From positions 23,373,016 to 23,437,015 of the forward strand of contig NC_052475.1 of NCBI RefSeq assembly GCF_009730915.1: 64,000 nucleotides of DNA, given 5' to 3'. The position numbers and the translations under genes are program-made. The notes below the pieces were generated by a model that did not search any database, was not told the DNA's origin, and saw only the letters and a list, made by a program, of their open reading frames with translations. Shown here piece after piece: positions 6,326 to 61,700 of the stretch. This DNA comes from Dioscorea cayenensis subsp. rotundata (lineage: Eukaryota; Streptophyta; Magnoliopsida; Dioscoreales; Dioscoreaceae). Within the stretch, counting starts at the first letter, position 1. Every line of letters starts with the position of its first letter.

Positions 6326-6913
<588 letters not shown>

Positions 6914-25098: not shown

Positions 25099-25208
25099 TC
25101 TGATCCTTTCTTCAAATTCCATTCATTTTCCACAAGGCCTTCCCTTCCAATCTGAAAATATTCTAAGATAAATTCCAGAGCATCTCCTGGTAAGTTTTTT
25201 AAAGATGC
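25099..25208 (-). CDS. Partial C-terminal exon of an unidentified gene, cut by the N gap
   Basis: From the gap edge the minus strand reads ASLKNLPGDALEFILEYFQ, then IGREGLVENEWNLKKGSDN, and stops at TGA (25099-25101). The amphipathic, charged composition is protein-like. An acceptor-like CCAG near 25191 means the exon could start inside the visible part. The 5' side is lost in the assembly gap. Family not recognised. Confidence 0.4.
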
Positions 25209-26208
25209 NNNNNNNNNNNNNNNNNNNNNNNNNNNNNNNNNNNNNNNNNNNNNNNNNNNNNNNNNNNNNNNNNNNNNNNNNNNNNNNNNNNNNNNNNNNN
25301 NNNNNNNNNNNNNNNNNNNNNNNNNNNNNNNNNNNNNNNNNNNNNNNNNNNNNNNNNNNNNNNNNNNNNNNNNNNNNNNNNNNNNNNNNNNNNNNNNNNN
25401 NNNNNNNNNNNNNNNNNNNNNNNNNNNNNNNNNNNNNNNNNNNNNNNNNNNNNNNNNNNNNNNNNNNNNNNNNNNNNNNNNNNNNNNNNNNNNNNNNNNN
25501 NNNNNNNNNNNNNNNNNNNNNNNNNNNNNNNNNNNNNNNNNNNNNNNNNNNNNNNNNNNNNNNNNNNNNNNNNNNNNNNNNNNNNNNNNNNNNNNNNNNN
25601 NNNNNNNNNNNNNNNNNNNNNNNNNNNNNNNNNNNNNNNNNNNNNNNNNNNNNNNNNNNNNNNNNNNNNNNNNNNNNNNNNNNNNNNNNNNNNNNNNNNN
25701 NNNNNNNNNNNNNNNNNNNNNNNNNNNNNNNNNNNNNNNNNNNNNNNNNNNNNNNNNNNNNNNNNNNNNNNNNNNNNNNNNNNNNNNNNNNNNNNNNNNN
25801 NNNNNNNNNNNNNNNNNNNNNNNNNNNNNNNNNNNNNNNNNNNNNNNNNNNNNNNNNNNNNNNNNNNNNNNNNNNNNNNNNNNNNNNNNNNNNNNNNNNN
25901 NNNNNNNNNNNNNNNNNNNNNNNNNNNNNNNNNNNNNNNNNNNNNNNNNNNNNNNNNNNNNNNNNNNNNNNNNNNNNNNNNNNNNNNNNNNNNNNNNNNN
26001 NNNNNNNNNNNNNNNNNNNNNNNNNNNNNNNNNNNNNNNNNNNNNNNNNNNNNNNNNNNNNNNNNNNNNNNNNNNNNNNNNNNNNNNNNNNNNNNNNNNN
26101 NNNNNNNNNNNNNNNNNNNNNNNNNNNNNNNNNNNNNNNNNNNNNNNNNNNNNNNNNNNNNNNNNNNNNNNNNNNNNNNNNNNNNNNNNNNNNNNNNNNN
26201 NNNNNNNN
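25209..26208. other. Assembly gap, 1000 N
   Basis: Exactly 1000 undetermined bases, probably a scaffold-gap placeholder, so the true length is unknown. Open frames spanning it are artefacts. Confidence 0.99.
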
Positions 26209-26334
26209 TCACATGTTGAAGGGCCATTGGCTCATCACTAATATTCGTTTAATTATTAGTAGTTTGGATTTTTGTTCAATTTTTATATAAATATGGATAA
26301 TATATATATCTATATATAACATTTTAATTAAATA

Positions 26335-31328: not shown

Positions 31329-34300
31329 ATGTCTTTGTCCGGTCAAGCGGTTGCTGGGATCGTGGTCGGCGTTGTCGCTTTGTTGATCCTGCTTCTTCTC
31401 TACTGGAGCTGTAGGTGCCCGTCGGAACGTACAAGAACGCCTCAACATCGTAGAAGTACCATCTTTTCTTGTTTCTCCGATTTTCACTAGTTTTATACCT
31501 GGAATGGAGATCTGGTTAATAGAGCAATAGAGCTAAGTTTTGTTTTAAAAGAAAATGGCATTTTGGTGATGGAGCTCCTTTGGATGAAGTGAAGTTGGAA
31601 TGTAGCCTGAATTTTAGAAAGTAACATTCAACTCATGCATTTTTAACCGGGATGAAAAATTTGGGTTGCAAACCCGCACTCACAGCTAGTGATTTATTAC
31701 CAGTATTACTTGTAACGAGTCTTTAACTCGACACCTTTTGATGACCCTGAATTTTTTAACTTTGACTTGGGAAAATCTCTTCTTTTATGGCTTAATTGTA
31801 TATGAAATGAAATTAAGAAGTCAAACTATAATATTTGGACAAATTCCTTGCCTTTTCTGACAATAATTTTGGAAAATCTGGTTCTATCTGAAGGCTTTTG
31901 ATGATTATAGGATTATTCAATAATTCTATTTGTTTCGTATAATTACCACTTTACCAGCAGACATGGTTTTTTTTTTTCCTGCTTATGTTGATTATCATTA
32001 CTGCTAATTTGATATACAACCAAGTTTCGTTAAGTTTTACTACAAAACTTTATCTGCATCTCAGAATGCTTTTGATAATTATAGAATTATACAAGAGTTG
32101 TATTTGTTTAGTGTAATTTCTATCAGAACTTACGGTTTTTGTTGTTCATTTTCATTATCAATACTGCTAATTTACTGTAACGGCAAGTTTTACTATAATA
32201 TCTGGCAGGCATTGCCGAATTTGACAGATGAATTGGCTTGAATTTTATTTTCATTGATCTGAGTGTTCTTGCAGATACATCGCGTGGTGGGCAGGCTCAG
32301 AATAAGCAGAAAAATTCTCTATCTCTGCCTCGTCGTAAAGGTACTACCTTTACTTGTTTCTCTAATTTCCCCTAGTTTATACCTAGACTGGAGATTTGGT
32401 TGATAGCACCAGGGTTTCAAAAAAAATTTCTTTTGGTTTTAGGGCTCTGTTTGATGAACTGAAGTTGAATGGAGCTTGAATTTTTTAGTCTTAATTGGAG
32501 AAATCTCTTATTTTGTGGCTTACATATGAAATGAAATTAAGTTGATCAAACTATGACATTTGCACAAATTACTTGGCTTTTCTCACAATCATTTTGTTAA
32601 ATCTGGTTCTATCTGCATCTCACAAGGCTTTTGATGGCTATAGAATTATTCAATAATTGCGTTTGTGTTGTATGATTACCAGCAGAATTTGCTTTCTTTG
32701 CTGTTTATTTTCAATATTACTACTACTAATTTGATATATAGCCAAGTTTCATTAAGTTTTACTACAAAATTTAACTTTATCTGCATCTTAGAATGCTTTT
32801 CATAATTATAGAATTATACAATAGTTGTGTTTGTTCATTATAATTTCTATCAGAACTTGCGGTTTTTCTTGTTCATTTTCATTATCACTACTACTGATTC
32901 GATACACCAGCAAGTTTTACTATAATATCTGTTAGGCATTGCTGGATTCGACAAATGAACTGACTAGACTTTTATTTTCATTGATCTGAGTGTTTATCCA
33001 GATGAATTGCATGGTGGACAGGCTCAGAATGGGCAGCAGAATGCTCCACCTCTGCCTCATCGTAAAGGTATACCTTTACTTGTTTCTTTAATTTTCCCTT
33101 GTTTTATTCCTGGGCTAGAGATCTGGTTGATAGCACTAGGGTTTCAAAAGAAAATGGTTTTTTGGTGTTAGAGCTACTTTGGATGAACTGAAGTTGAATG
33201 GAGCTTGATTTTCTTAGCCTTAACTGCAGAAATCTCTTCTTTTATGGCTTACATATGAAACGAAATTAAGAAGCTCAAACTATGATATTTGGACAAATTC
33301 CTTGGCTTTTCTCGCAATCAGTTTGGAAAATCTGGTTCTATCTGCATCTCACAAGGGTTTTGATGATTATAAGTTAAAAATTGGCGTTGATGAAGGCAGA
33401 GAAACGGGTTGACTGAGGCGTACCGATGCACTAACCTTAAGAACAAATTCGCCTCCTTTTTCAGTGCAACAGGATCAAATGGCGATGTTCTCCCAGGATA
33501 CAACAGTCTTCTTTTCTCTTGGTCTTGCACCAGGACAGAGAAAATATTGAGTGCTCAGTTTGCGGGGAAAGAGAAGTGAAGAAAAGCAGATGAAGGAGAT
33601 GTTGTATGAAACCGGTTCTGGGTTTGCAATTCATCTGGCTCAAACTATGATATTTGCACAAATTACTTGGCTTTTCTCACAATCATTTTAGAAAATTTGG
33701 TTCTATCTGCATCTCACAAGGCTTTTGATGACCATAGCATAATTCATTAATTGTATTTATTTTGTATGAATACCAGCAGAATTTGCATTCTTTGTTGTTC
33801 ATTTTCATTATCATTTACTGCTAATTTGATATACAGCCAAGTTTTTCATTAATTTTTACTACAAAATTTAACTTTATCCGCATCTCAGAATGCTTTTGTT
33901 AATTATAGAATTATACAATAGCTGTATTTGTTTAGTGTAATTTCTATCAGAAATTATGGTTTTTGTTGTTCATTTTCATTATCAATACAGCTAATTTGTT
34001 GCACAAGCAAGTTTTACTACAATATCAGGCAAGCATTGCCGGATTTGACAAATGAATTGACTTGACTTTTATTTTCATTGATCTGAGCATTCTTGTAGAT
34101 GAATTGCAAGGTGGACAGTCTCAGAATGGGCACCAGAGTGCTCCACCTCCGCCTCCTAGTAAAGGTACAACTTTTACTTCTTTCTCCAATTTCCCCTAGT
34201 TTTATACTTGGACCAGAGATCTGGTTGATCACCAAAAGAAAATGGTCTTTTGGTGTTAGAGCTCGTCCTTCGGATGAATCGAAGTTTAATGGAGCTTGAG

Positions 34301-37300
34301 TTTTTTGGCCTTAACTGGAGAAATCTTTTCTTTTATGGCTTACATATGAAACGAAATTAAGGAGCTCAAACTATGATATTTGCACAAATTACTTGGCTTT
34401 TCTCACAATAATTTTGGAAAATATTGTTCTATCTGCAACTCACAAGGCTTTTGATGACTATAGAATTATTCAATAATTGTATTTGTTTCGTATAATTACC
34501 AGCAGAATTTGCTTTCTTTGTTGTTTATTTTCATTATTGTTACTACGAATTTGAAATACAGCCAAGTTTCGTTAAGTTTTACAACAATAACCTAACTTTA
34601 CCTGCATCTCAGAATGCTTCTGATAATTATATTATCATGCAAGAGTTGTATTTGTCAAGTGTAATTTCTATCAGAATTGATGGTTTTTGTTGTTCATTTT
34701 CATTATCAGTGCCGCTAATTTTTGTTGTACTAGCAAGTTTTATGATAATATCTGGCAATCATTGCCGAATTCGATAGATGAAATGACTTGACTTTTATTT
34801 TCATTGATCTGAGTGTTTTTGCAGATGAATTGCAAGGTGGGCAGGCTCAGAACGGCCAGCAGAGTGCCCCACCTCCACCTTGTCTTAATGGTACCTCCTT
34901 TACTTATTTCTCCAATTTTCCCTAGCTTTATACCTGGACTGGAGATTTGGTTGATAGCACTAGGGTTTAAAAAAAAAGTGTCTTTTGGTGTTAAAGCTCC
35001 GTTTGATGAATTGAAGGTAAATGGAGCTTGATTTTTTTAGCCTTAACTGAAGAAATCTCTTCTTTTTGGCCTACATATGAAACAAAATTAAGTTGCTCAA
35101 ACTATCATATTTGCACGAATTACTCTGCTTTTCTCACAATCATTTTGTTGAATCTGGTTATATCTGCATCTCACAAGGCTTTTGATGACTATAGAATTAT
35201 TCATTAATTGTATTTCTTTTGTATAATTACCAGCAGAATTTGCATTCCTTGTTGTTCATTCTTTGTTATTCATTTTCATTATCACTACTGCTAATTCGAT
35301 GCACCAACAAGTTTTACGAGAATATCTGGTAGGCATTGCCGAATTGGACCTATAAACTAACTTGACTTTTATTTTCATTGAACTGAGTGTTCTTGCAGAT
35401 GAATTGCATGGTGGACAGGCTCAGAGTGGGCAGCAGAATGCTCCAGCTCCGCCTTGTCGTAAGGGTACTACCTTCACTTGTTTCTTCAATTTCCCCTAGT
35501 AATATACCTTGACCGAGATTTAGTTGATGACAATAGGGTTTCAAAAGATAATGGTCTTTTGGTGTTAGAGCTGCTTTGGATGAACCGAAGTTGAATAGAG
35601 GTTTAAGTTTTTAGCCTTAACTGCAGAGATCTCTTCTTTTATGGCTTACATGTGAAACGAAATTTAGAAGCTCAAACTATGATACTTGGCTTTTCTCACA
35701 ATCATTTTTGTTGAATCTGGTTCTATTTGCACCTGACGAGGCTTTTGATAAATATAGAATTATTCATTAATTGTATTTCTTTTGTATGATTACCAGCAGA
35801 ATTAGCATTCTATGTTGTTCATTTTCATTATCATTACAGCTAATTTGATATACAGCCAAGTTTCGTTAAGTTTTACTACAAAATCTAACTTCATCCGCAT
35901 CTCAGAATGCTTTTGATAATTACAGAATCATACAAGAGTTGTGTTTGTTTAGTGAAATTTCTATCCAACTTAGGGCTTTTGTTGTTCATTTTCATTATCA
36001 ATACTGCTAATTCGTTGCACCAGCAAGTTTTACTATAATATCCGGCAGGCATTGCCAGATTTAAGAGATGAATTGACTGGACTTTTATTTTCATTGATGT
36101 GAGTGTTCTTGCAGATGAATTGCAAGGTGGACAGGCTCAGAACGGTCTGCAAAATACTCCACCTCCGCCTCGTTGTGAAGGTACTACCATTACTTGTTTC
36201 TCTAATTTCCCTTAGTTTTATACCTGGACTGGAGATTTGGTTGATAGCACTAGGATTTAAAAAAAAAATGGTCTTTTAGTGTTAGAGCTCCGTTTGATGA
36301 ACCGATGTTGAATGGAGCTTGAATTTTTTAGCCTTAACTGGAGAAATCTCTTCTTTTATGGCTTACATATGAAATGAAATTAAGTTGCTCAAAATATGAT
36401 ATTTGCACAAATTACTTGGCTTTTCTCACAATCATTTTGTTGAAGATCTGGTTCTATCTGCATCTCACAAGGCTTTTGATGACTATAGAATTATTCAAAA
36501 ATTTTGTTTATTTTGTATGATTACCAGCAGAATTTGCATTCTTGTTGTTCATTTTCATTTTCATGACAGCTAATTTGATGTACAGCCAAGTTTCATTAAG
36601 TTTTACTACAAAATCTAACTTTATCCGCATCTTAGAATGCTTTTGATAATTATAGAATTATACAAGACTTGTATTTTTTTGGTGCAATTTCTATCAGAAC
36701 TAATGGTTTTTGTTGTGCATTTTCATTATCAATACTGCTAATTCGTTGCACCAGCAAGTTTTCCTATAATATCTGGCAGCATTGCCGGATTCGACAAATG
36801 AATTGACTTTACTTTTATTTTTATTGATCTTGTTGGAATATAGTACTACATCGGTTGTGTGATAGAAGTGTAATAGGTTTATATATAGGTATAGGGGTTG
36901 AGCCATTAAGTCTTGAGACTTTTTGATGTAAGACTCCTAAACCCATATAGAGCCCATATAGAGCCCACATAGAGCCCACTAGTACCAAAATATAAAATCT
37001 AACATTGCATCAGAGAAATATAGTGGAGCCCAATATATGTTTACACAAGTGGTGTACAAGTCCATGTGTGTAGGACCTCTGAGGCACAAGTAGTGTACAA
37101 GTCCATATGTGTAGGACCTCCGAAACACAAAGTAGTGTACAAGTCCTGGTAAATAGACCTTTGGTGTATAAGTCTGAGCAACTTCGACCGAGTTGAACTT
37201 GAGGGAAGATGTTGGAAATATAGTACCACATCGGTTGTGTGATAGAAGTGTAATGGGTTTATATATAGGTATAAGGGTTGAGCCATTAAGTCTTGAGACT

Positions 37301-40300
37301 TTTTGGTGTGAAACTCCTAAGCCCATATAGAGCCCATATAGGGCCCACTGGTACTAAAATATAAAATCTAACAAATCTGAGTGTTTTTGCATATGAATTG
37401 CAAGGTGAACAGGCTCAGAACGGGCAGCAAAATGCTCCACCTCCGCCTCGTCATAAAGGTATTACCTTTACTTGTCCCCCAAATTTCCCCTCGTTTTTTA
37501 CCTGAATTGGAGACCTGGTTGATGGCACTAGGGTTTTAAAAGAAAATGGTCTTTTGGTGTTAGAGCTCCTTTAAATGAACCAAAGTTGAATGGAGCTTGA
37601 ATTTTTTAGCCTTAACTCGAGAAATCTCTTCTTTTATGGCTTACATATGAAACGATTAGGAGCGCAAACTATGATATTTGCACAGATTACTTGGCTTTCC
37701 TCAGTCATTTTGTTGAATCTGGTTCTATCTGCATCTCACAAGGCTTTTGATGACTATAGAATTATTCAATAATTGTATTTGTTTCGTGTGATTACCAGCA
37801 TAATTTGCTTCCTTTGTTGTTCATTTTCATTATCGTTACTACTTATTTGATATACAGCCAAGTTTCGTTAAGTTCTACTACAAAATCTAACTTTATCCGC
37901 ATCTTAGAATGCTTTTGATAATTATAAAATTATGCAAGAGTTTCATTTGTTTAGTGTAATTTCTATCAAAACTTACGGTTTTGTTGTTCATTTCCAATAT
38001 CATTACCGCTACATTGATGCACCAGCAAGTTTTACTATAATATCTGGTAGGCATTGCCGGATTCGAAATATGAACTGACTTGACTTTTATTTTCATTGAT
38101 CTGAGTGTTTTTGCAGACATATTGCAAGGTGGACAGGCTCAGGATGGGCAGCAGAATGCTCCGTCTCCCCCTCATCGTAAAGGTACTACCTTTACTTGTT
38201 TCTCCAATTTCCCCTAGTTTTTAACCTTGACCAGAGATCAAGGTAGTCAAATCGAGATTCGAATCGTGAATCGAAATTCTAAATTTGTGAATCGAGTATC
38301 GTGAATCGAATCGAATCTTAAGATTCGGTTCAACATTTCAAAGTCATATATATATATATATAACATGATTATATAAAAAATAAAAAAATAAAAATTCTAA
38401 GCCATGAATTAAATATAAACTAGTTTGGAAGACATTTTCTTAGTTTGAGATCCTGTTTTGAGCTTAGAAGACATTTTCAAGTATTAAGCAAACCTATATA
38501 TATTTAAAAAAAACATTAGTTATTTCAAAAATAGTTCAGATTTAAAAATCAATATAATAATCACAAAAAGATTAAATTATGTTAAAGATTAGTTTTTAAA
38601 TTAAAAAGATTTCTTTTCATAACAAGAGTTTTAAGATAACAAATTAATTTGATATTAAAATTTAAAAAAAAACATTATCTTTTAATTAATCTTTGAATTT
38701 GTTTTTGGATAACAAATTTAAAGATTAATTAAATAATCACTAATTTAAAAAAACTTTTTATAATAATTAAAAATAGTTGATCGCATGCATTATAATAAAA
38801 GAATTTAAAAAGTAAAAGAGAAGAATGTCGAGAAAGATGAAGAGATGGTATAAAAATGCCTATGTTGAGGATGTTGGAATAAAACAACAAAAATTTCTCC
38901 TTCCTCCTATGTTTCTTACTCTTTTTTTATTCTTCCTTTTTCTTTTGATTTTTCTAATTCAAAACTTGTATTAACTAGGAATCGTTGATCTTCTCGATTC
39001 ATATCGATTCGACCGATTCGAGACAGATTCAAACGATTCATTCACGATTCTAGATCAATTTCGATTCTTTTATTAGATTCGAACCGTTACGGATGAAAAA
39101 CGATATGAATCGTAAGATTCGTATCGAGAACCGTACGATTCTAACTACACTGGTTGGTAGCGATAGGGTTTCCAAAGAAAATGGTCTTTTGGTGTTAGAG
39201 CTCCTTTGGATGAGCCCAAGTTGAATAGAGTTTTAATTTTTTAGCCTTTAACTCTCTTCTTTTATGGCTTAAATGTGAAATGAAATCAAGAAGCTCAAAC
39301 TATGATATTTGCACAAATTGGTTGGCTTTTCTCACAATCATTTTGTTAAATCTGGTTCTATCTGCATCTCACAAGACATTTGCTTACTATAGAATTATTC
39401 AAAAATTGCATTTGTTTTGTATGATTTCAAGTAGAATTTGCATTCTTTGTTGTTCATTTTCACTACCATTACTGCTAATTTGATATACAACCATGTTTCT
39501 TTAATTTTAACTACAAAATCTAACTTTATCTGCATCTCAGTATGCTTTTGATAATTATAGAATTATACAAGAGTTGTATTTATTTGTTTAGTGTAATTTC
39601 TATCAGAACTTATGGTGCGTTTTTCATTATTAATACTGCTAATTCGTTGCACTAGCAAGTTTTACTATAATATCTGGCAGGCATTGCTGGAGTCGAGAAA
39701 TGAATTGACTTGACTTTATTTTCATTGATCTGAGTGTTCTAGTAGATGAATTGCACGGTGGACAGGCTCAGAATGGCCAGCAAAATGCTCCACCTTCGCC
39801 TCATTGTGAAGGTATTACCATTATTTGTTTCTCCAATTTCTCCTGGTTTTATACCTGGACTGGAGTTTGGGTTTATAGCACTAGGGTTTCAAAAAAAAAA
39901 AAAAATGGTCTTTTGGTGTTAGAGCTCCTTTGGTTGAACCGAAGTTGAATGGAGCTTGAATTTTTAAGCCTTAACTGGAGAATCTCTTCTTTTATGGCTT
40001 ACATATGAAGCAAAATTAAGGAGCTCAAACTATGATATTTGCACAAATTACTTGGCTTTTCTCACAATCATTTTGGAGAATCTGGTTCTGTCTGCATCTC
40101 ACAAGGCTTTTGATGACTATAGAATTATTCAATAATTGTATTTGTTTCGTGTAATTACCAGCAGAATTTGCTTTCTTCATTTTCATTATCGTTACTACGT
40201 ATTTGATATACAGCCAAGTTTTGTTAAGTTTAAGTGCAAAATCTAACTTTATCTGCATCTAAGAATGTTTTTGATAATTATAGAATTATACAAGAGTTGC

Positions 40301-43300
40301 ATTTGTATAGTGTAATTTCTATCAAAACTTACAGTTTTTGTTGTTCAGTTTGCAAGTTTTACTATCATATCTGGTAGGCATTGCCGGATTCGACAATCGA
40401 ATTGACTCGGCTTTATTTTCATTGATCTGAGTGTTCTTGCAGATGAATTGCACAGTGGACAGGCTCAGAATGGGCAGCAGAATGCTCCACCACCTTCTGA
40501 TCATGGTTTTGAAATACCGCCGCATCCTCCTTGCCCTCCTCCGGGACCATTTGTTCCCTATCATCCATTTCCACCACCTCACCCCCCACCCCCTCCTCCT
40601 CCACCGCCACCGCCACCGCCACCTGCCTTCTTTAGCAACAATGGAGGAATAGGGTCCAGCTATTCAGGTCCTGATAATTCTTTACCTCCTCCACCTCCTG
40701 GAATTTCCCTTGGTTTCTCGCAAAGTACCTTTACTTATCAAGAGCTAGCAAGGGCAACAGATGGGTTCTCTGTTGCTAATCTGCTCGGGGAGGGTGGTTT
40801 TGGCTATGTGCATAGAGGAGTGCTTCCAAATGGTAAAAAGATTGCGGTCAAGCAATTGAAATCTGTAGGTGTGCAGAAGAAGCGCGAGTTTCAGGCAGAG
40901 GTTGAGATTATTAGTCGTGTGCATCACAGACATTTGGTCTCATTGGTTGGATATTGCATTTCTGAAGAACGGAGACTGCTTGTCTGTGAGTTTGTTCCAA
41001 ACGGCACATTGCATTTCCATTTGCACGGTAATACTTTCAAATTTATGATTGTTTTCTTAATTAATTCATGGGTGCAATGAATAAACCGATCGAGACCGAG
41101 TAAAATTCTTGTTAGTGTGTGTTTGACATGCATCTATTATCAACTGTGCAATGAATAAACCTGATCAGTTAAGTTCTTGTTAGAGTGTGTTTGCCAGAAC
41201 TGCTACCGACTTCACCAACCATGATTACGAAGCATCTCTAATTTATTCAGTACTAGCTAGCAAGGAAACTACGAAATAAATTGAAGAGCTTAATTAGATG
41301 TTTGTTTATAGTTTCTAGCATTCACTTCATCATTTACATTTAATGAATTATTATTTGGGTTTTTGCAGGGGAAGGTCGACCAACTATGGATTGGCCTACG
41401 AGATCAAAAATTGCTTTAGGATCTGCTAAAGGATTAGCCTATTTGCATGAGGATTGTGAGTAACTGTTGCTTTTCTTTTCCTTATTAAACAGCTGATATT
41501 TTCAATATATGCATTTGTTAATTGTAGCTGTTGAGAGCAACATAACATTCTCTTGATTTTTTTTTTCATCGTTCTGTTTATAGGTAATCCTAGGATTATT
41601 CATCGTGATATTAAGCCGGCCAATATTCTTCTTGATTCCAACTTTGAGGTGAAGGTGAGAAAGTTTTAATTATCTTTTCTTTCTTATCATTATTTTTTGT
41701 TCTAATATGCCTTAACATACGTACTGTATAAAGAAGTAGATGAACAAAAATAATATAAATAAAAGTCTCAAAGTTGACTAAAGTATAATTTTGGTTGATG
41801 GATTTGTTGCTAAAATTTAAAATTTTCACTATCCAACTTAGTAAAGCAAAGGTAATACACCAAATGACCAAGAAAAAATGAAATTCTTTCTGTTTTCTTT
41901 TGGTCCTGATTTTAATGAGAATTATTATCTTCCATCCATGTTAGTCCTTGTTTGAATTTAGACAATGAGAATTTCATTGCTTTGATAGGATGGTTCAACC
42001 ATCTCATTAAGGGGATTCTCATTACCCCCTTTAATTGGGAGAATGATAGAGGGGTAATGGATGATCCCCTCTCTTCACATTTATTTATTATTTAAAATTA
42101 ATTTACATATCTAATTAATATATTTAAAAATTAATTAATTAAAATTAAAATTTATAATAATTAAAGTAAATTTGATATTCAAGTTATTTTATAATTGTGT
42201 GTTTTTTTTATTTTAAACACTTAAAATATTGCAATTAAATTAGTTGGTGACGTGGAAATTACAATAATTGAACTATAATTATTTAATGAAAATATTTAAT
42301 TAAAATAATTTAATAAGCAAATAAATGTTAAAGTAAATTATTTCCTTGAAATATTTAATTATAATAAATTTAAGTAAATAATTATTTTTTTAACTATTTA
42401 ATAATAAATAATGTTAAATATTTATTGTTAAACATAATTTATTAGATACCATCACGTAATTTCATCATCTCTCTAAACCTTTCTATTCCCGATCCTCATT
42501 CCCTCTAATCAGTTTTTATTATCCTCTCCATTCCTCATTCTCATTCCTTTCTTTTTCCCATTCCTTTGTTCTCATTCCCATTTTGCAATCCAAATATGAA
42601 GTAATAGCATATCCTTCAGTGTTATGTACCATGCCAGTGATTTCAGTAACTTCAACCTGCTTTTGTAGCTAAAATTTTTTCACGGAACTAAAATTTATCC
42701 AAAGAACAGATGCTTTCTAAGTATTATATCCGTTGTTGATTCATAGCCAACATTTTCATTTAATGAACATGTAGCTATTTGCAGATTGCAGATTTTGGAC
42801 TTGCAAAAGTTGTACCTGATAACAACACTCATGTTTCAACCAGAATCATGGGTACTCTTGGGTAACTGAAATTTGTCATTCCCTTCTCTCAGTTCTAATT
42901 TTAACAAAATATGTTACTACTGAAAAGTCCAGATTGTTCAAATGATATTCCTGTTACGCAGTAATTGTTATTCTTGTGTTTTATGAAAGAACTTTTGTTT
43001 TGTTTTGTTTTGTTTTTTGTTTTGTGGGTAACCTTGCAGCATCTGGGGCCAGTGTCTTATTATTGTTTGCCCTGTAAGTAACACAAACTCTTCTTCTGTT
43101 TTACTAACCTGTCAATTTCTCCAGGTATTTGGCACCGGAGTATTTACTTTTCAGGAGGCTAACAGATAAAGCAGATGTTTACGCCTTTGGGGTCATGCTT
43201 CTGGAGTTGATCACAGGAAGGCTGCCCGGTGGCAGCCACGCTTCCAGTTATAGCTTGGCTGTTTTGGTCAGTCTCTTGCATGTGGCAATTCAATATCTTC

Positions 43301-43857
43301 ACTGCTTTTGCAGTGACAAATTTGACTGCTTAATTGTTACTGTAGGCAAGGCCGTCGCTCACACATGCTTTAGAGGAAGGCAATTATGAGCCTCTCGTCG
43401 ATCCAAGGTTGGGGAATAATTATAATCCTAGTGAGATGAACCGGATGGTCGCTTGTGCTGCTGCTTGTGTACATATTTCTGCAAATCGTCGACCTCGAAT
43501 GAGTCAGGTACTCTTTCCACTTCATAAAAATTGCTCAATATATATATATATATATACACATTTCATGAAGTTGCAATGAATAAGTTCTGATCCAGCTGTG
43601 AATTTAAAAAAAGTATCATTAATTTTATTAGGAAGTTTCTCTACTTTTGATTGTCTTCCATACCGACTTCAAGATGTTCAAACTTGATTTCATTTTTGAA
43701 TGAGAAAACTGAGCAGGTGGTTCTAGTATTGCAAGGACATGTATCCCTTGAAGATTTGAACAATGGTGTTCCCCCCGGCCAAAGTAGGAACTACGTCTCT
43801 CGCGGAAATGAGGACCTGGAGAACTTAAGAAGAAGGGCGTTAGGGCCGTTTAGTTAA
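31329..43857 (+). CDS. Membrane-anchored receptor-like kinase A (PERK-like kinase domain) with tandem-exon linker
   Basis: Predicted Ser/Thr kinase of the RLK/Pelle group, closest in motifs to PERK kinases. Exons: 31329-31455; nine 66-nt repeat exons (32275, 33002, 34099, 34825, 35399, 36115, 37393, 38117 and 39746 are their starts); then 40443-41027, 41369-41455, 41584-41654, 42785-42861, 43125-43266, 43346-43507 and 43717-43857. The total is 1986 nt, 661 aa with every exon, or 639 aa if 37393-37458, whose acceptor is destroyed, is skipped. Residues 9-26 are one membrane span after only eight residues. The linker is a 22-residue repeat ([17 protein letters not shown] type), then a run of about 15 Pro. 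The kinase has GEGGFG (about 356), AVK Lys (about 377), HRDIKPAN (Asp about 473), DFG (about 491) and APEY, all intact. RLK specificity and ligand are unknown. Confidence 0.9.
33372..33638 (-). other. Foreign 267-bp patch inside one array unit
   Basis: Between two array landmarks this stretch has no counterpart in any other unit. Read on the minus strand it looks exon-like: a CT-rich start, the in-frame string [20 protein letters not shown] followed by ANLF, then a GTTAGT donor-like site. It is followed by a second copy of the roughly 110-bp landmark block that also precedes it. This may be a captured gene fragment; I do not recognise the source. Confidence 0.45.
36831..37373 (+). mobile_element. 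TRIM (terminal-repeat retrotransposon in miniature), 543 bp
   Basis: Two direct terminal repeats, 36831-37004 (174 bp) and 37210-37373 (164 bp), both start TGTTGGAA and end AAAATCTAACA. After the first comes TTGCATCAGAG (37005-37015), close to the initiator tRNA-Met primer site. Before the second is a purine tract GAGGGAAGA (37201-37209). The flanks are GATCT (36826-36830) and AATCT (37374-37378), a 5-bp duplication with one mismatch; sister introns show the uninterrupted site TTGATCTGAGTG. The inside has no coding capacity and about 2.5 tandem copies of a roughly 50-bp unit with GTGTACAAGTCC. This is a textbook TRIM. Confidence 0.92.
37393..37458 (+). pseudogene. Seventh repeat exon of kinase A with destroyed splice acceptor
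   Basis: The 66-nt exon body is intact and would encode the standard repeat ([17 protein letters not shown]). The acceptor, read as GCAG in sister units, is GCAT here (AT at 37391-37392), so no AG precedes the exon. The TRIM ends only 19 bases upstream. Because the exon is symmetric, skipping it keeps the reading frame. Confidence 0.8.
38240..39150. mobile_element. 911-bp insertion with ATTCG-rich inverted ends in an array intron
   Basis: Sister introns read GAGATCTGGTTGATAGC without a break; here 911 bp sit between GAGATC and TGGTTGG. The left end (AAGGTAGTCAAATCGAGATTC) and right end (complement GTGTAGTTAGAATCGTACGG) are imperfect inverted repeats, with many ATCGAATC/GATTCG motifs next to both. 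The core is AT-rich without coding sequence. It is probably a non-autonomous DNA transposon; no clear target-site duplication. Confidence 0.7.
40555..40628 (+). repeat. Poly-proline codon run in the kinase A linker
   Basis: CCA/CCT/CCG codons encode a Phe/His-interrupted and then uninterrupted run of about 15 Pro right before AFFSNN. It is the kind of Pro-rich segment that PERK kinases carry outside the cell. Here it lies after the only membrane span, so it should face the cytosol. Confidence 0.8.
41941..42595. mobile_element. Old AT-rich foldback element shared by both kinase paralogues (copy in A)
   Basis: This stretch in the intron before the DFG exon starts with CCTTGTTTGAATTTAGAC and ends TTTTGCAATCCAAATATG (an inverted motif). 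It has paired ATTCTCATT/AATGAGAAT blocks. A diverged counterpart occupies the same intron of kinase B (about 61105-61790), so it was inserted before the gene duplication. Confidence 0.55.
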
Positions 43858-51449: not shown

Positions 51450-52419
51450 TGGGACAAGCAAAAAAGAGTAATGCTATTTGCAAAAAAAAGGTTACATAAA
51501 TTTTCCACACAATTCACTGGCTGCCACCTCACTACCTCATTTCTCTCTCCTATTCAACCTAATAAGTCAGATTAGATAAAGAAACTTATGCCCTAATTTA
51601 TCTTCTCACTCTCACAACTCGCCGCCCACCAAACCCCACACCTCACGCCTCTCGCCGGTAACCCACTGCGTCACCGAACCTTCCGCCCGTGGCCACTGTC
51701 GTTATCATGTTTGCGACCATCCCATTCCACCAAACCTCGCGCCCATCACTTGTCGCCCATCGCTTATCACCCAGCACCCGTAGCGATCATTGTGGGCCAA
51801 GAGATGAGGTTTCAATTAGGCATTCCGTCGATCAGTTTCCATGCGTGGCAGAGATGACCAAATTTTAAATACCCTGAGAGGAGAAGGTTTGCTACAAAAA
51901 CATTTAATCGGAAGCCAGAGGTGATGGACAGGGCATGGATTGTTTGAAGATGCCGGTGGTGAGCTTTGACAGTGATACATGACTACAAAAGATCGAAGAG
52001 TCTTTGCTTCATCGGAGATGAAGCAAAACTAATGCTAAGTGCAACGTTCGTAGAATCAGCTTCATGAACAACTCCACAAAATTTACTTATTCTAAAATAA
52101 ATAATTCCTTGTAATATCTTTCAAACAAAGTTGCAAACCAAACATATACATAAGAAAGGTAAGCTTCCTTTTTAATTCGAAAAACAAATTAAGATATCTT
52201 AGATGTTACTAATTTAATTCTCAAATTTCTTAAAAATCTAAATTAATGGTTGAACACTTACTTGAGTTAGCCGACCACATGAAGAAATAATATGATGTGT
52301 GTTTTAAACTCACAGAGGCCATTTACAAGTTGAACTTCAAGCTTAGAATCAAAGTGAAAGATAACAAAACGATAAGTTGTTTAATTATCTATAGGTATTC
52401 AATAAACTACAACACTAAT

Positions 52420-52663
52420 CTGTCGACGTGCGATAGGCGACGGGCACTGAGCGGTGGGGGTGGGGTTCGATGGCCTAGGATGGTCGTGAGCATGATAACA
52501 GTGATGGCGACGGGCGGAGGGATCTGTGGCGCGGCACTAATCTGTCGACGTGCGATAGGCGACGGGCACTGAGCGGTGGGGGTGGGGTTAGATGGCCTAG
52601 GATGGTCGTGAGCATGATAACAGTGATGACGACGGGAGGAGGGATCTGTGGCGCGGCAGGTGA
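52420..52663. repeat. Tandem duplication of a 122-bp GC-rich unit
   Basis: The unit starting CTGTCGACGTGCGATAGGCG occurs at 52420 and again at 52542, nearly identical, including CGGTGGGGGTGGGG and GGCCTAGGATGGTCGTGAGC. It sits in the core of the long-inverted-repeat transposon. Confidence 0.93.
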
Positions 52664-57505: not shown

Positions 57506-58723
57506 ATGTCTGATCAAGAGCTTGCTGCGATCATCGTGGGAGTGGTGGTTTTGTTGGTACTGCTTTTTCTCTACTGGAACTGTATGTGCCAGTCGGAACC
57601 TACAAGTACGCCTCGAGAGCGTCAAGGTACGTACTATCTTTATTCCTCCTTGTGTCACCCATTTTCACTGGTTTCATTTATACCTGGAATAAATTAAGAT
57701 CTGGTTGATAGAGAGCTTATAAGGTTTCAAGAGCTAATGGCATTTTGGTGTTGAAGCTCCTTTGGTTGATAGAGAGCTTATAAGTGGAATCGAGATTGAA
57801 TTTTTTTTATCGTTAACTGGGGAAAATCTCTTTCTTTTATGACTTACATATGAAACGAAATTAAGAAGCTCAAACTATGATATTTGCACAATTTACTTAG
57901 CATTTCTCACAATCATTTTGCAAAATATGGTTCTGTCTGCATCTTAAATGGCTTTTGAAAATTATAGAATTATTCAGTAGTTGTATTAGTTTTGTATAAT
58001 TATGAGCAGAATTTGCTTTCTTTGTTAATAAAAATATTTCGTGGATTTTTGTTTACTCTTTGCAACTCTTAAGTTTAAGTGTGATGTTTTGCTTTCTTTG
58101 TTGTTCTTTTTAATTATTATTGGTGCTAATTTGATATTTAACCAGGTTTAGTTCAGTTTTACGGGAAAGAATCTAACTTTATTTGCATCTCAAAATGCTT
58201 ATGATAGTTATTTAATGATACAAGAGTAATTTCTATCTAAACTTACGTTTTGTTCATTTTCAATATCATTGCTGCTAATTTGATGCAGTAGCAAGTTTTA
58301 GTACCAAGGGCCAAGGGGTGTGAATCGGGAAAGCTCTTAGGTCATAGGTCAATGGTTGAAGCGGGGTTGATCCGGTTATAAATAATATATATATATATAT
58401 ATATAATTGCTAAGAATTTGAAAAATAATAATATAAAAATATAAAAAAACACAAATATTTTTTTTTGTAAATTATAGATACCAAAAAAAAACAAAATTAC
58501 TCTTGACAAATTTAATGTTTTTTTAATAGCATATAATAAATCAGTATAACTTATAAGCATAACGATTAGTATGTATATGAATGAGGTAAATCATAAACAT
58601 ATATTTGCTAACTTTATAAAACAAAATAGTGTCAAATGTAAACTTAGATTTAAGATTGATTCCAATAATATGATTCGGTTTTTAAAAATTTAGTATTAAT
58701 TAATATTTAATTAGATGATACAT

Positions 58724-58764
<41 letters not shown>

Positions 58765-61700
58765 AAAGGTGGATAAAGAGGAGCATGAATTTATGTTTTT
58801 GAAATATAAGAAAATACAAAGGTTTATTATAAAACAAATTTATATACAAAAACATGCTTATTTTAAGATTTGAACCATGAGTTCACTTTTGCTAGAAAAA
58901 TGACCGCCTTAGCTAATAGCTATGATAGGTTACATATATTTAAAAATCTGAAAAATTTAAAATAATATTTATTATTTATAAACGGCATGTGACTTTACTG
59001 GGTCTGGTTGAACAGGGTCCACTCGGCAGAACCAACCCGGGTTTCAAAACATTGAGTTTTACAGTTTTACTTTTACTATGATATCCGGTAGACATCGACG
59101 GATTGAACAGATGAACCTACTTGACTTTTATGTTCATTGATCTGAGTGTTCTTGCAGATAAACTGAATAATGCACAGGCTCCGAATGTGCCTCGAAATTA
59201 TCCACCACCATCTGCTAATGTTGTCGAAAAAGGATCCAGCTCTGCAGGTCCTGATGATTCTTTACCTCCTGCCCGTCCTGGCATTGCCTTTACTTATGAA
59301 GAACTAAAAAAGGCTACAAATTCGTTCTCTCCCAATAATTTTCTTGGAGAGGGTGGTTTTGGCCCTGTGCATAAGGGAGTGGTTACAATTGATAAAAAGG
59401 GAGTGCTTCCATTCGATGAAGAGGGAGTGCTTCCAATTGATATAGAGATTGCAGTCAAGCAATTGAAACCTGGAGCTCGGCAAGGGCAGTGTGAGTTTGA
59501 GGCAGAGGTTAACATTATTAGTCGTGTCCATCACAAACATTTGGTCTCATTGGTTGGATATTGCATTTCTGAAGAGCGGAGACTACTTGTTTACGAGTTT
59601 GTTCCTAACAACACATTGCATTTCCATTTGCACGGTAATACTTTCAAATTTTTTTTGTTTTCTTAATTCATGGGTGCAATGAATAAACCGAGACCGAGTA
59701 AAATTCTTGTTATAGTGTGTGTTTGACATGCATCTATTATCAACTGTGCAATGAGTAAACCTGATCAGTTAAATTCTGGTTTGAGTGTGTTTGGCAGATC
59801 TGCTACCAACTTCACCAACCATGATTGCCAAAGTTTCTAGCATTGACTTCTTCATTTAAATCTAATGAATTATTTGGGTTTTTGCAGGGGAAGGTCGACC
59901 AACTATGGATTGGTCTACAAGATTAAAAATTGCTTTAGGATCTGCGAAAGGATTGGCCTATTTGCATGAGGATTGTGAGTAATTGGTTCTTTTGCTATTC
60001 CTGATTGAACACTTCGATAATTTTTTGATATGCGTGTGCTAATTGTAGCTGTTGAGAGCAACATAACATTCTCTTAATTTTTTTCATCGTTCTGTTTATA
60101 GGCAATCCTAGGATTATTCATCGTGATATTAAAGCGGCCAATATTCTTCTTGATTCCCAATTTGAGGTGAAGGTGAGATAATCTTTTATTTTTTGTCATT
60201 ATTTTTTTTTTCTATATGCCTTGACATACATGCTATATAAAGAAACATATGACTCCAAAAATAAAAAGTCTCAAGGGTGATTAAATAATAATCTTGGTTG
60301 AACCAAAGAGTTTGTAGCCCAACGGTACCTCGGGTCTTCTCATTGGGAAAGAGACGAATTTGATTCCTTTTGACAGCACTCCCCAGTTTAAAGAGGGTAA
60401 GAACATTGTGGGGCAATCCCTGGCCACGTACGCCTCTGAGGGTTGGTGCTTATCACCCTACTTCAAAATAATAATAATAATAATATTAATCTTGGTTGAT
60501 AGATTTGTTGCTAAAATACAAAATTTTTACTATCCATCACAACAAAGCAAAGATATTATCTATAAAAAAAACTTTCATTTTGTTTTCCTTCAGTCTAGGG
60601 CTGGTAATGAGGCGGGAAATCCCCGATCCCCGCGAGGACCCGACCCAACGGGGGCGGGAATTCCTCGGTTCATTCCCCCTGTGGGGGTGGGGACGGGGGC
60701 CAACGCGTCCCCGTTTGTTAAACGGGGCGGGGGCGGGAGGTCCCCGGACCCGGTTAAAAATAATATATATATAAATTTTTAATTTAAATTATTTACAATT
60801 TTGCAATTTTTATAAATTATCTCATTAAATTTCGTTTTGCTTAAACATTTGGAGTATTTTGTTTTTGTAAATTTTGTTTTGTTGGTTTGTTGAGTTTTAT
60901 TTTGAATGATTTTTATGTTTATCATGTGTGTTAGTGTGTATTAGTATTAGATTTTTTTTAAAATCAAACAAAACTTATAGGTATATGGGGATCCCTGGGA
61001 ACGGGGACGGGGACGGGGACGGGGAGATAACTTCCCCCGTCGTGGAGTCGGGGATGGGGATTCCCCGTCCCCGCCCCGGCCGTTACCAGCCCTACTTCAA
61101 TCCTTGTTTTTTCAAAGAATATGAATCATTATCTCCTATCTATATTAACTCTTATTTGAATTGGGCCAATAGAATCCCATTGCTTCAAAAGAGATTCCCA
61201 TTATTCAAAATTGGGGGAATTGAGGGTAAAGTTGTATAATGCCTATATTACATCTCTCATCACATTTATTTATTAATTTAAATTAATATAATTAATTTAT
61301 ATATTTAATTATACTGATTAAAATTAAAAATAATTAGAGTGAATATGATATTAAAATTATTTTATTATGAAAGTTTTATTTTTTTTTATTTTAAACATTT
61401 TGAATATCACAATTAGATTAGTTAGCGATGCTAAAATTACAATAATTGAACTATAATTATTTAATGGAAATATTTAATTAATATAATTTAATAAGCAAAT
61501 AACTGTTAAAGTAAATTGTTTACTTGAAATATTTAATTATAATAGATTAAACTAAATAATTATATTTTAAGTATTTAATAATAAAAATAGTATTTAAATA
61601 TTTATTATTAAATATAATCTATTATCTTATACAATATCATCTCATTTACACAAAAAAATAAAAATAAAAATAAATAAATGTAATTTTATTATCGCTTATA

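Follow-up and report, generated by a model that had tools for sequence, protein, structure and literature searches.

The 64,000-nucleotide (nt) stretch of Dioscorea cayenensis subsp. rotundata DNA analysed here (called the window below; contig NC_052475.1 of assembly GCF_009730915.1, positions 23,373,016 to 23,437,015, forward strand) comes from a 584 Mb genome assembled in 2249 contigs, and it carries on its plus strand a receptor-like kinase gene, gene A, in which nine separate 66-nt exons lie in tandem between a short first exon and the kinase exons. We put at about two in three the probability that gene A encodes a PERK-derived receptor kinase that lacks an ectodomain and that this array of coding exons has lengthened its juxtamembrane linker. 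A first-pass annotation of the window had described the array and proposed that unequal crossing-over between its units sets the length of a membrane-to-kinase linker; the observation proves right and its main inference plausible, and to these we add the proposed PERK origin, the lost ectodomain, the probable chimeric nature of the repeat exon, a second array in a paralogue and a broken seventh copy. The relatives used for comparison are called B (which lies in the same window), C, D, E, X and Y.

Exon 1 of gene A (31329–31455, plus strand, as are all exons below) encodes a short N-terminus, a transmembrane segment and an arginine-rich tail, contains no proline-rich ectodomain and ends in phase 1, and its frame runs into the later exons. 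Its ATG and the bases just upstream resemble, by eye, those of paralogues B, C, D, X and Y, and on this ground we reject the possibility, raised in the first-pass annotation, that the real first exon lies elsewhere. The repeat exons r1 (32275–32340), r2 (33002–33067), r3 (34099–34164), r4 (34825–34890), r5 (35399–35464), r6 (36115–36180), r7 (37393–37458), r8 (38117–38182) and r9 (39746–39811) are each 66 nt long, and there are no stops and no insertions or deletions (indels) across the nine; the donor is GT in all of them and the acceptor AG in eight, the exception being r7, which has AT. A tenth motif copy heads the first kinase exon, k1 (40443–41027), at 40443, and is followed there by a cytosolic proline-rich stretch and the kinase N-lobe. 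Exons k2–k7 (41369–41455, 41584–41654, 42785–42861, 43125–43266, 43346–43507 and 43717–43857, the last with the stop codon) carry the rest of the kinase in a continuous frame. All ten junctions from exon 1 to k1 are in phase 1, so that both ends of every repeat exon have the phase first reported for them, and the predicted splice of 17 exons (exon 1, nine repeats and seven kinase exons) gives 661 codons and a stop without interruption; coordinates, splice sites and open frame thus confirm nine 66-nt exons and a tenth copy fused to the kinase exon. A fuzzy search of the window with 33 nt of motif DNA, allowing up to nine mismatches, hit ten times from 32289 to 40457 and once more at 59172, where paralogue B has a diverged copy, with no hit on the minus strand. 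The 17-residue motif first given for the array of gene A is exact in copies 2 and 9 only.

Exons and introns align across units, so that a homologous intron does accompany each repeat exon, as originally noted. The units had also been called near-identical, which is too strong: the repeat exons have a mean pairwise identity of 82% (84% without copy 1). The unit length of about 725 base pairs (bp) holds for five of the nine units, whose start-to-start spacing is 697–727 bp; in the other four, the intron alignment shows changes due to three insertions (about 365, 548 and 911 bp) and a 154-bp deletion. Array introns range from 508 to 1563 nt and measure about 650 nt where they are free of a large insertion or deletion. 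By eye, the ~365-bp insertion lies in intron 3 near 33370–33640, and the 911-bp insertion in intron 9 (about 38240–39150) is AT-rich with partly inverted ends.

The 548-bp insertion corresponds to a small element at 36831–37373 that looks like the long terminal repeat type, with two direct terminal repeats of 174 and 164 nt that are 87% identical in a self-BLAST comparison. It stops about 20 nt upstream of r7, and may, in addition to the changed acceptor dinucleotide there, have shifted the likely branch-point region away from that exon. Copy 7 is probably not spliced in; its own frame is open, and the gene's frame stays open when it is skipped.

Relationship of gene A to the PERK family

The predicted spliced protein of gene A matches the Pfam profiles Pkinase (1.3e-46) and PK_Tyr_Ser-Thr (1.2e-45), BAK1, a plant receptor-like kinase, supplies both of its best two matches among solved chains, and the HRD, DFG and APE motifs can be read in it, all of which supports the initial assignment to the receptor kinases. 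Exon k1 is 89% identical to k1 of gene D and 69% to k1 of gene E, and by this likeness and the Pfam domains gene A has a cytosolic kinase of the PERK type. PERKs are described as having an N-terminal extracellular proline-rich (extensin-like) domain (PMC4769139, PMC4265151) and a transmembrane segment followed by positive residues (PMC4265151). The sequence of gene A reads as a transmembrane segment followed by an arginine-rich stretch, but only few residues stand ahead of the membrane segment and the proline-rich ectodomain is absent; genes B, C and Y likewise have a short exon 1 that enters a hydrophobic segment almost immediately. In genes D (about 93 kb from gene A, on the opposite strand) and E (on contig C20), a proline-rich stretch precedes the hydrophobic segment.

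Genes A, D and E have in common a juxtamembrane GGQ..N(W)..NAPP motif after intron 1. It is present singly in D and E, where the sequence right after intron 1 is one motif copy (DELYGGQAQNWKQNAPP in D and DDFYGGQVHNWQHNAPP in E), and ten times in gene A, where the 22-residue array unit is this motif joined to a tail like that of exon 1. The GGQ..NAPP motif is also present in Arabidopsis PERKs. Because gene A shares the motif with D and E and has a short exon 1 where they have a proline-rich stretch, it is best described as a PERK-derived kinase without an ectodomain. Exon 1 of gene D is 461 nt long, which leaves a remainder of 2 rather than 1 and breaks the frame at the junction, and so gene D may be a pseudogene or carry an assembly error. 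Gene structure varies among PERKs, which are reported to lack introns in cotton (PMC6479967) and to have 3–23 introns and up to 24 exons in wheat (PMC8880425). A literature search whose coverage lay largely outside subscription journals found no PERK with an exon array.

Origin of the repeat exon and its copy number

Each repeat exon resembles two different exon edges of gene D. Over their first 46 nt, r1–r9 agree with the beginning of the D kinase exon at 33–43 positions (33 in r1, the copy least like the kinase-exon head) and with the right-aligned tail of D exon 1 at 9–12. For the last 20 nt the figures are 13–19 against the D exon-1 tail (19 in r2) and 7–10 against the aligned kinase exon, and none of 20,000 shuffled tails exceeded 14 matches to that exon-1 tail. 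The acceptor regions of the repeat exons match the acceptor of the kinase exon at 16–20 of 20 positions, and the joint between the two parts falls in proline codons that are present in both parents. The repeat exon is thus probably a chimera of the edge of exon 1 and the edge of the kinase exon, for which the simplest account would be a tandem duplication of intron 1 together with its exon edges. Several values weigh against this account: the tails of r4 (13/20) and r5 (14/20) fall within reach of the shuffles, tails slid without gaps along the D kinase exon reach 11–15 matches and in one of nine cases (r4, 15 against 13) exceed the match to the exon-1 tail, and against today's exon 1 of gene A itself the tails score only 9–12 of 20. 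The argument consequently rests on gene D as the better-preserved ancestor.

Such an exon could have arisen through misaligned recombination or slippage in which the terminal proline codons of exon 1 paired with those that follow GGQ..NAPP in the head of the kinase exon. The misalignment would duplicate intron 1 in tandem with both of its exon edges, and the joint would be a new 66-nt exon, its head taken from the kinase-exon motif and its tail from exon 1. The introns on either side of the new exon would both derive from one phase-1 intron, so that the frame would survive whether copies were gained, lost or skipped. The early observation that any subset of the exons splices in frame therefore stands, but it need not be a designed property: with every intron a copy of one phase-1 intron, in-frame joining is automatic, and we reject phase symmetry as evidence of selection. 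Later unequal exchange would alter the number of copies, probably separately in gene A and in the neighbouring paralogue, and the eight intact copies of gene A would most likely be spliced in constitutively.

That neighbour, paralogue C (ATG at C5 23455471, about 51 kb downstream of the gene A ATG), has homologues of all six exons k2–k7 and also contains nine separate repeat exons. Seven are 69 nt long and the other two 66 and 72 nt; each is open in phase 1 and flanked by AG and GT. Its array is built mostly of 244-bp units, with eight inner introns of 174–180 nt and two outer ones of 770 and 1051 nt, and eight of its nine exons are lysine-rich (VKTDGGQALKEKKNDPSPSQKDK and variants). Comparisons of the array with itself, which covered two- and three-unit steps, gave 95–96% identity at three-unit shifts (three comparisons) and about 93% at two-unit shifts (two comparisons); these values point to unequal exchange in multi-unit steps. 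Paralogue X on contig C818 is 92.9% identical to C over 1.9 kb and carries a single lysine-rich exon together with what, by eye, is a shortened remnant of the first. Paralogue B (exon 1, which encodes no ectodomain, at 57506–57626; kinase exon at 59158–59634) has only the diverged copy fused to its kinase exon, as first described, since the fuzzy search found no separate copy, and D and E are also without a separate repeat exon. Unequal exchange is thus likely to drive unit number, and the array of C and its one-unit relative X support the crossing-over that had been proposed.

A genome search with the array stretch of gene A listed 35 matches, all in the C5 cluster or on contig C818; it scored 11 candidate places and skipped very common words, so that distant or weaker copies could escape it. 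Trees built from short intron ends group the inner introns of C with X introns and apart from those of A; A_i9 has a long branch in one of the trees and A_i7 in the other, probably because of insertions. The expansions of arrays A and C look separate by this measure, and a first copy shared by the two is possible. Contig C818 is not a simple second haplotype of the same locus, given a best match of 92.9% over 1.9 kb and best matches that are not collinear; it is possibly a diverged haplotype. At about 42 kb and 51 kb on its minus strand are two more paralogues in which proline-rich stretches precede the kinase and the juxtamembrane motif is degraded or lost. The kinase exons of B (window positions ~59374–59423), C and X share an in-frame insert that lies ahead of the catalytic lysine strand and repeats a GVLP-like motif; A, D and E lack this insert.

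Coding constraint and alternative explanations

Are the repeat exons used as coding sequence? The copies were already known to be intact when the measurements that address this were made. The 594 exon bases (9 × 66 nt) of array A contain no indel where 3.4 are expected from the intron rate (P 0.033), and neutral simulation along the intron tree (5000 runs) put the joint P of finding no stop and at most one broken splice site at 0.009 (singly, P 0.075 for the former and P 0.15 for the latter). In the motif core (nt 1–50 of eight copies, r1 left out), variation is 0.092 and 0.084 at codon positions 1 and 2 and 0.208 at position 3 (permutation P 0.017). The splice sites flanking each copy are, moreover, duplicates of the pair on which B and D depend to splice out their own intron 1, which is a prior argument for inclusion. 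The repeat exons are likely to be included, and the motif core appears to be under constraint of moderate strength while the tail is free.

A number of values point the other way. The indel result weakens to P 0.052 when only frame-breaking indels are counted and to P 0.17 for indels longer than 1 bp, and P is 0.32 in the codon-position test when whole exons and all nine copies are used. Without r1, variation in the last 16 nt is 0.25, against 0.135 in the introns; exon divergence as a whole, 0.181 (0.159 without r1), is not below that of the introns (0.143, or 0.135 without intron 1), and the non-synonymous divergence (dN) of the repeat exons is 0.150 without r1, about the intron level. Array C alone is compatible with neutrality (joint P 0.20, seven of its nine exons simulated), the donors carry T, A or C at position +5, where G is usual, and copy 7 has lost its acceptor. 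Ratios of non-synonymous to synonymous divergence (dN/dS) in kinase segments of 303–351 nt are 0.31 for A–D, 0.40 for B–C, 0.62 for A–B, 0.88 for A–C and 1.42 for C–X, the last of which makes constraint on some of the paralogues doubtful.

Several of these values are what one would expect if the array were unused or decayed, its units being intron repeats spread by unequal exchange and its small exons mostly skipped decoys, with exon 1 joined directly to the kinase exon as in B and D. Exon divergence that equals or exceeds intron divergence, the lost acceptor of copy 7, the lack of separate repeat exons in B and D and the simulations of array C all favour such an array. We nevertheless regard it as unlikely, though not negligibly so, since all 18 exons of arrays A and C are open and of frame-preserving length, array A departs from the neutral expectation for stops, splice sites and indels, and the flanking splice sites are those that B and D would need. 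Regulated combinatorial splicing, in which tissue or condition would pick subsets of exons and so set the length of the linker, is less probable still. Every subset is in frame, all copies being phase 1 at both ends, and donor and acceptor sequences vary among copies; the phase symmetry, however, follows from intron duplication and so gives no support to regulated skipping, and a 2009 study concluded that alternative splicing contributes little to the functional expansion of the plant proteome (PMC2674458). That the tandem copies are a product of misassembly could be suspected in a genome of so many contigs, with paralogues on an unplaced 56-kb contig, but it is extremely improbable: the introns of array A differ by ~13–14% and carry private insertions, which makes them separate sequences, and seven introns of array C differ by ~7%. 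The coding array in a PERK-derived kinase thus remains our preferred explanation of gene A.

Surrounding sequence, linker length and known systems

Elsewhere in the window, pieces of a Copia-type retrotransposon lie at 59–2477 on the minus strand (Pfam RVT_2, gag_pre-integrs and Pol_BBD above the cut-off, rve below it), and a plus-strand open reading frame of 193 amino acids at 6332–6913 matches the dirigent profile over almost its full length (Pfam PF03018, 4e-39). Two long overlapping frames on opposite strands at 25199–26290 (342 and 361 amino acids) have no Pfam match, and a GC-rich 122-bp unit is tandemly duplicated, with a 97% match, at 52413–52658.

Counted from the predicted protein of gene A and the Pfam bounds, membrane and kinase are separated by about 320 residues if all nine exons are included and by about 125 if none is. 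By the positive-inside rule the array would lie on the kinase side of the membrane, and its composition suggests that the product is disordered: a long, Gly/Gln/Asn/Pro-rich cytosolic tether from membrane to kinase. A role for the length of this tether in signalling is a guess. Bolder still, and rather improbable in our estimation, is the proposal that, once the ectodomain was lost, one chimeric exon gave rise independently in the two paralogues to nine-exon arrays that differ in chemistry (Gly/Gln/Asn/Pro-rich and Lys-rich), giving heritable, labile linkers through which array length or subset splicing would tune signalling. The anatomy suggests a nearly stepwise picture in which one recombination across an intron creates a frame-safe exon that then multiplies. 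One genome holds the proline-rich PERKs D and E, the single-copy B, the one-exon X and the nine-exon A and C, and this natural length series of receptor-kinase linkers makes the effect of juxtamembrane length on signalling testable.

Known systems resemble gene A in part. PERKs share with it the likeness of the kinase exon (in D and E) and the GGQ..NAPP motif after intron 1, but gene A has no extracellular proline-rich domain and has the juxtamembrane motif ten times, nine of them on separate exons. Tandem exon duplication, reportedly treated by Kondrashov and Koonin in 2001, copies exon and intron in tandem with symmetric phases, and adjacent homologous units are what gene A contains. The exon arrays of Dscam are an example (PMC1397879); they are spliced in a mutually exclusive manner. 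In gene A, by contrast, all of the copies can be joined without breaking the frame, the encoded protein looks disordered, and two exon edges seem to have combined into a chimeric first copy. Animal genes with repetitive symmetric exons (titin PEVK, elastin and collagen) likewise use many short in-frame exons to encode a flexible or repetitive protein, but gene A is a plant receptor kinase gene whose repeats lie beside the membrane on the predicted kinase side and whose copy number varies between neighbouring paralogues. Some plant leucine-rich repeat receptor kinases have one 72-nt exon per repeat and so are like gene A in having one repeat per symmetric exon; theirs, however, form a folded extracellular solenoid, whereas the array of gene A would be cytosolic by the positive-inside rule and its unit, among the matches listed, occurs in only one gene cluster and on one unplaced contig.

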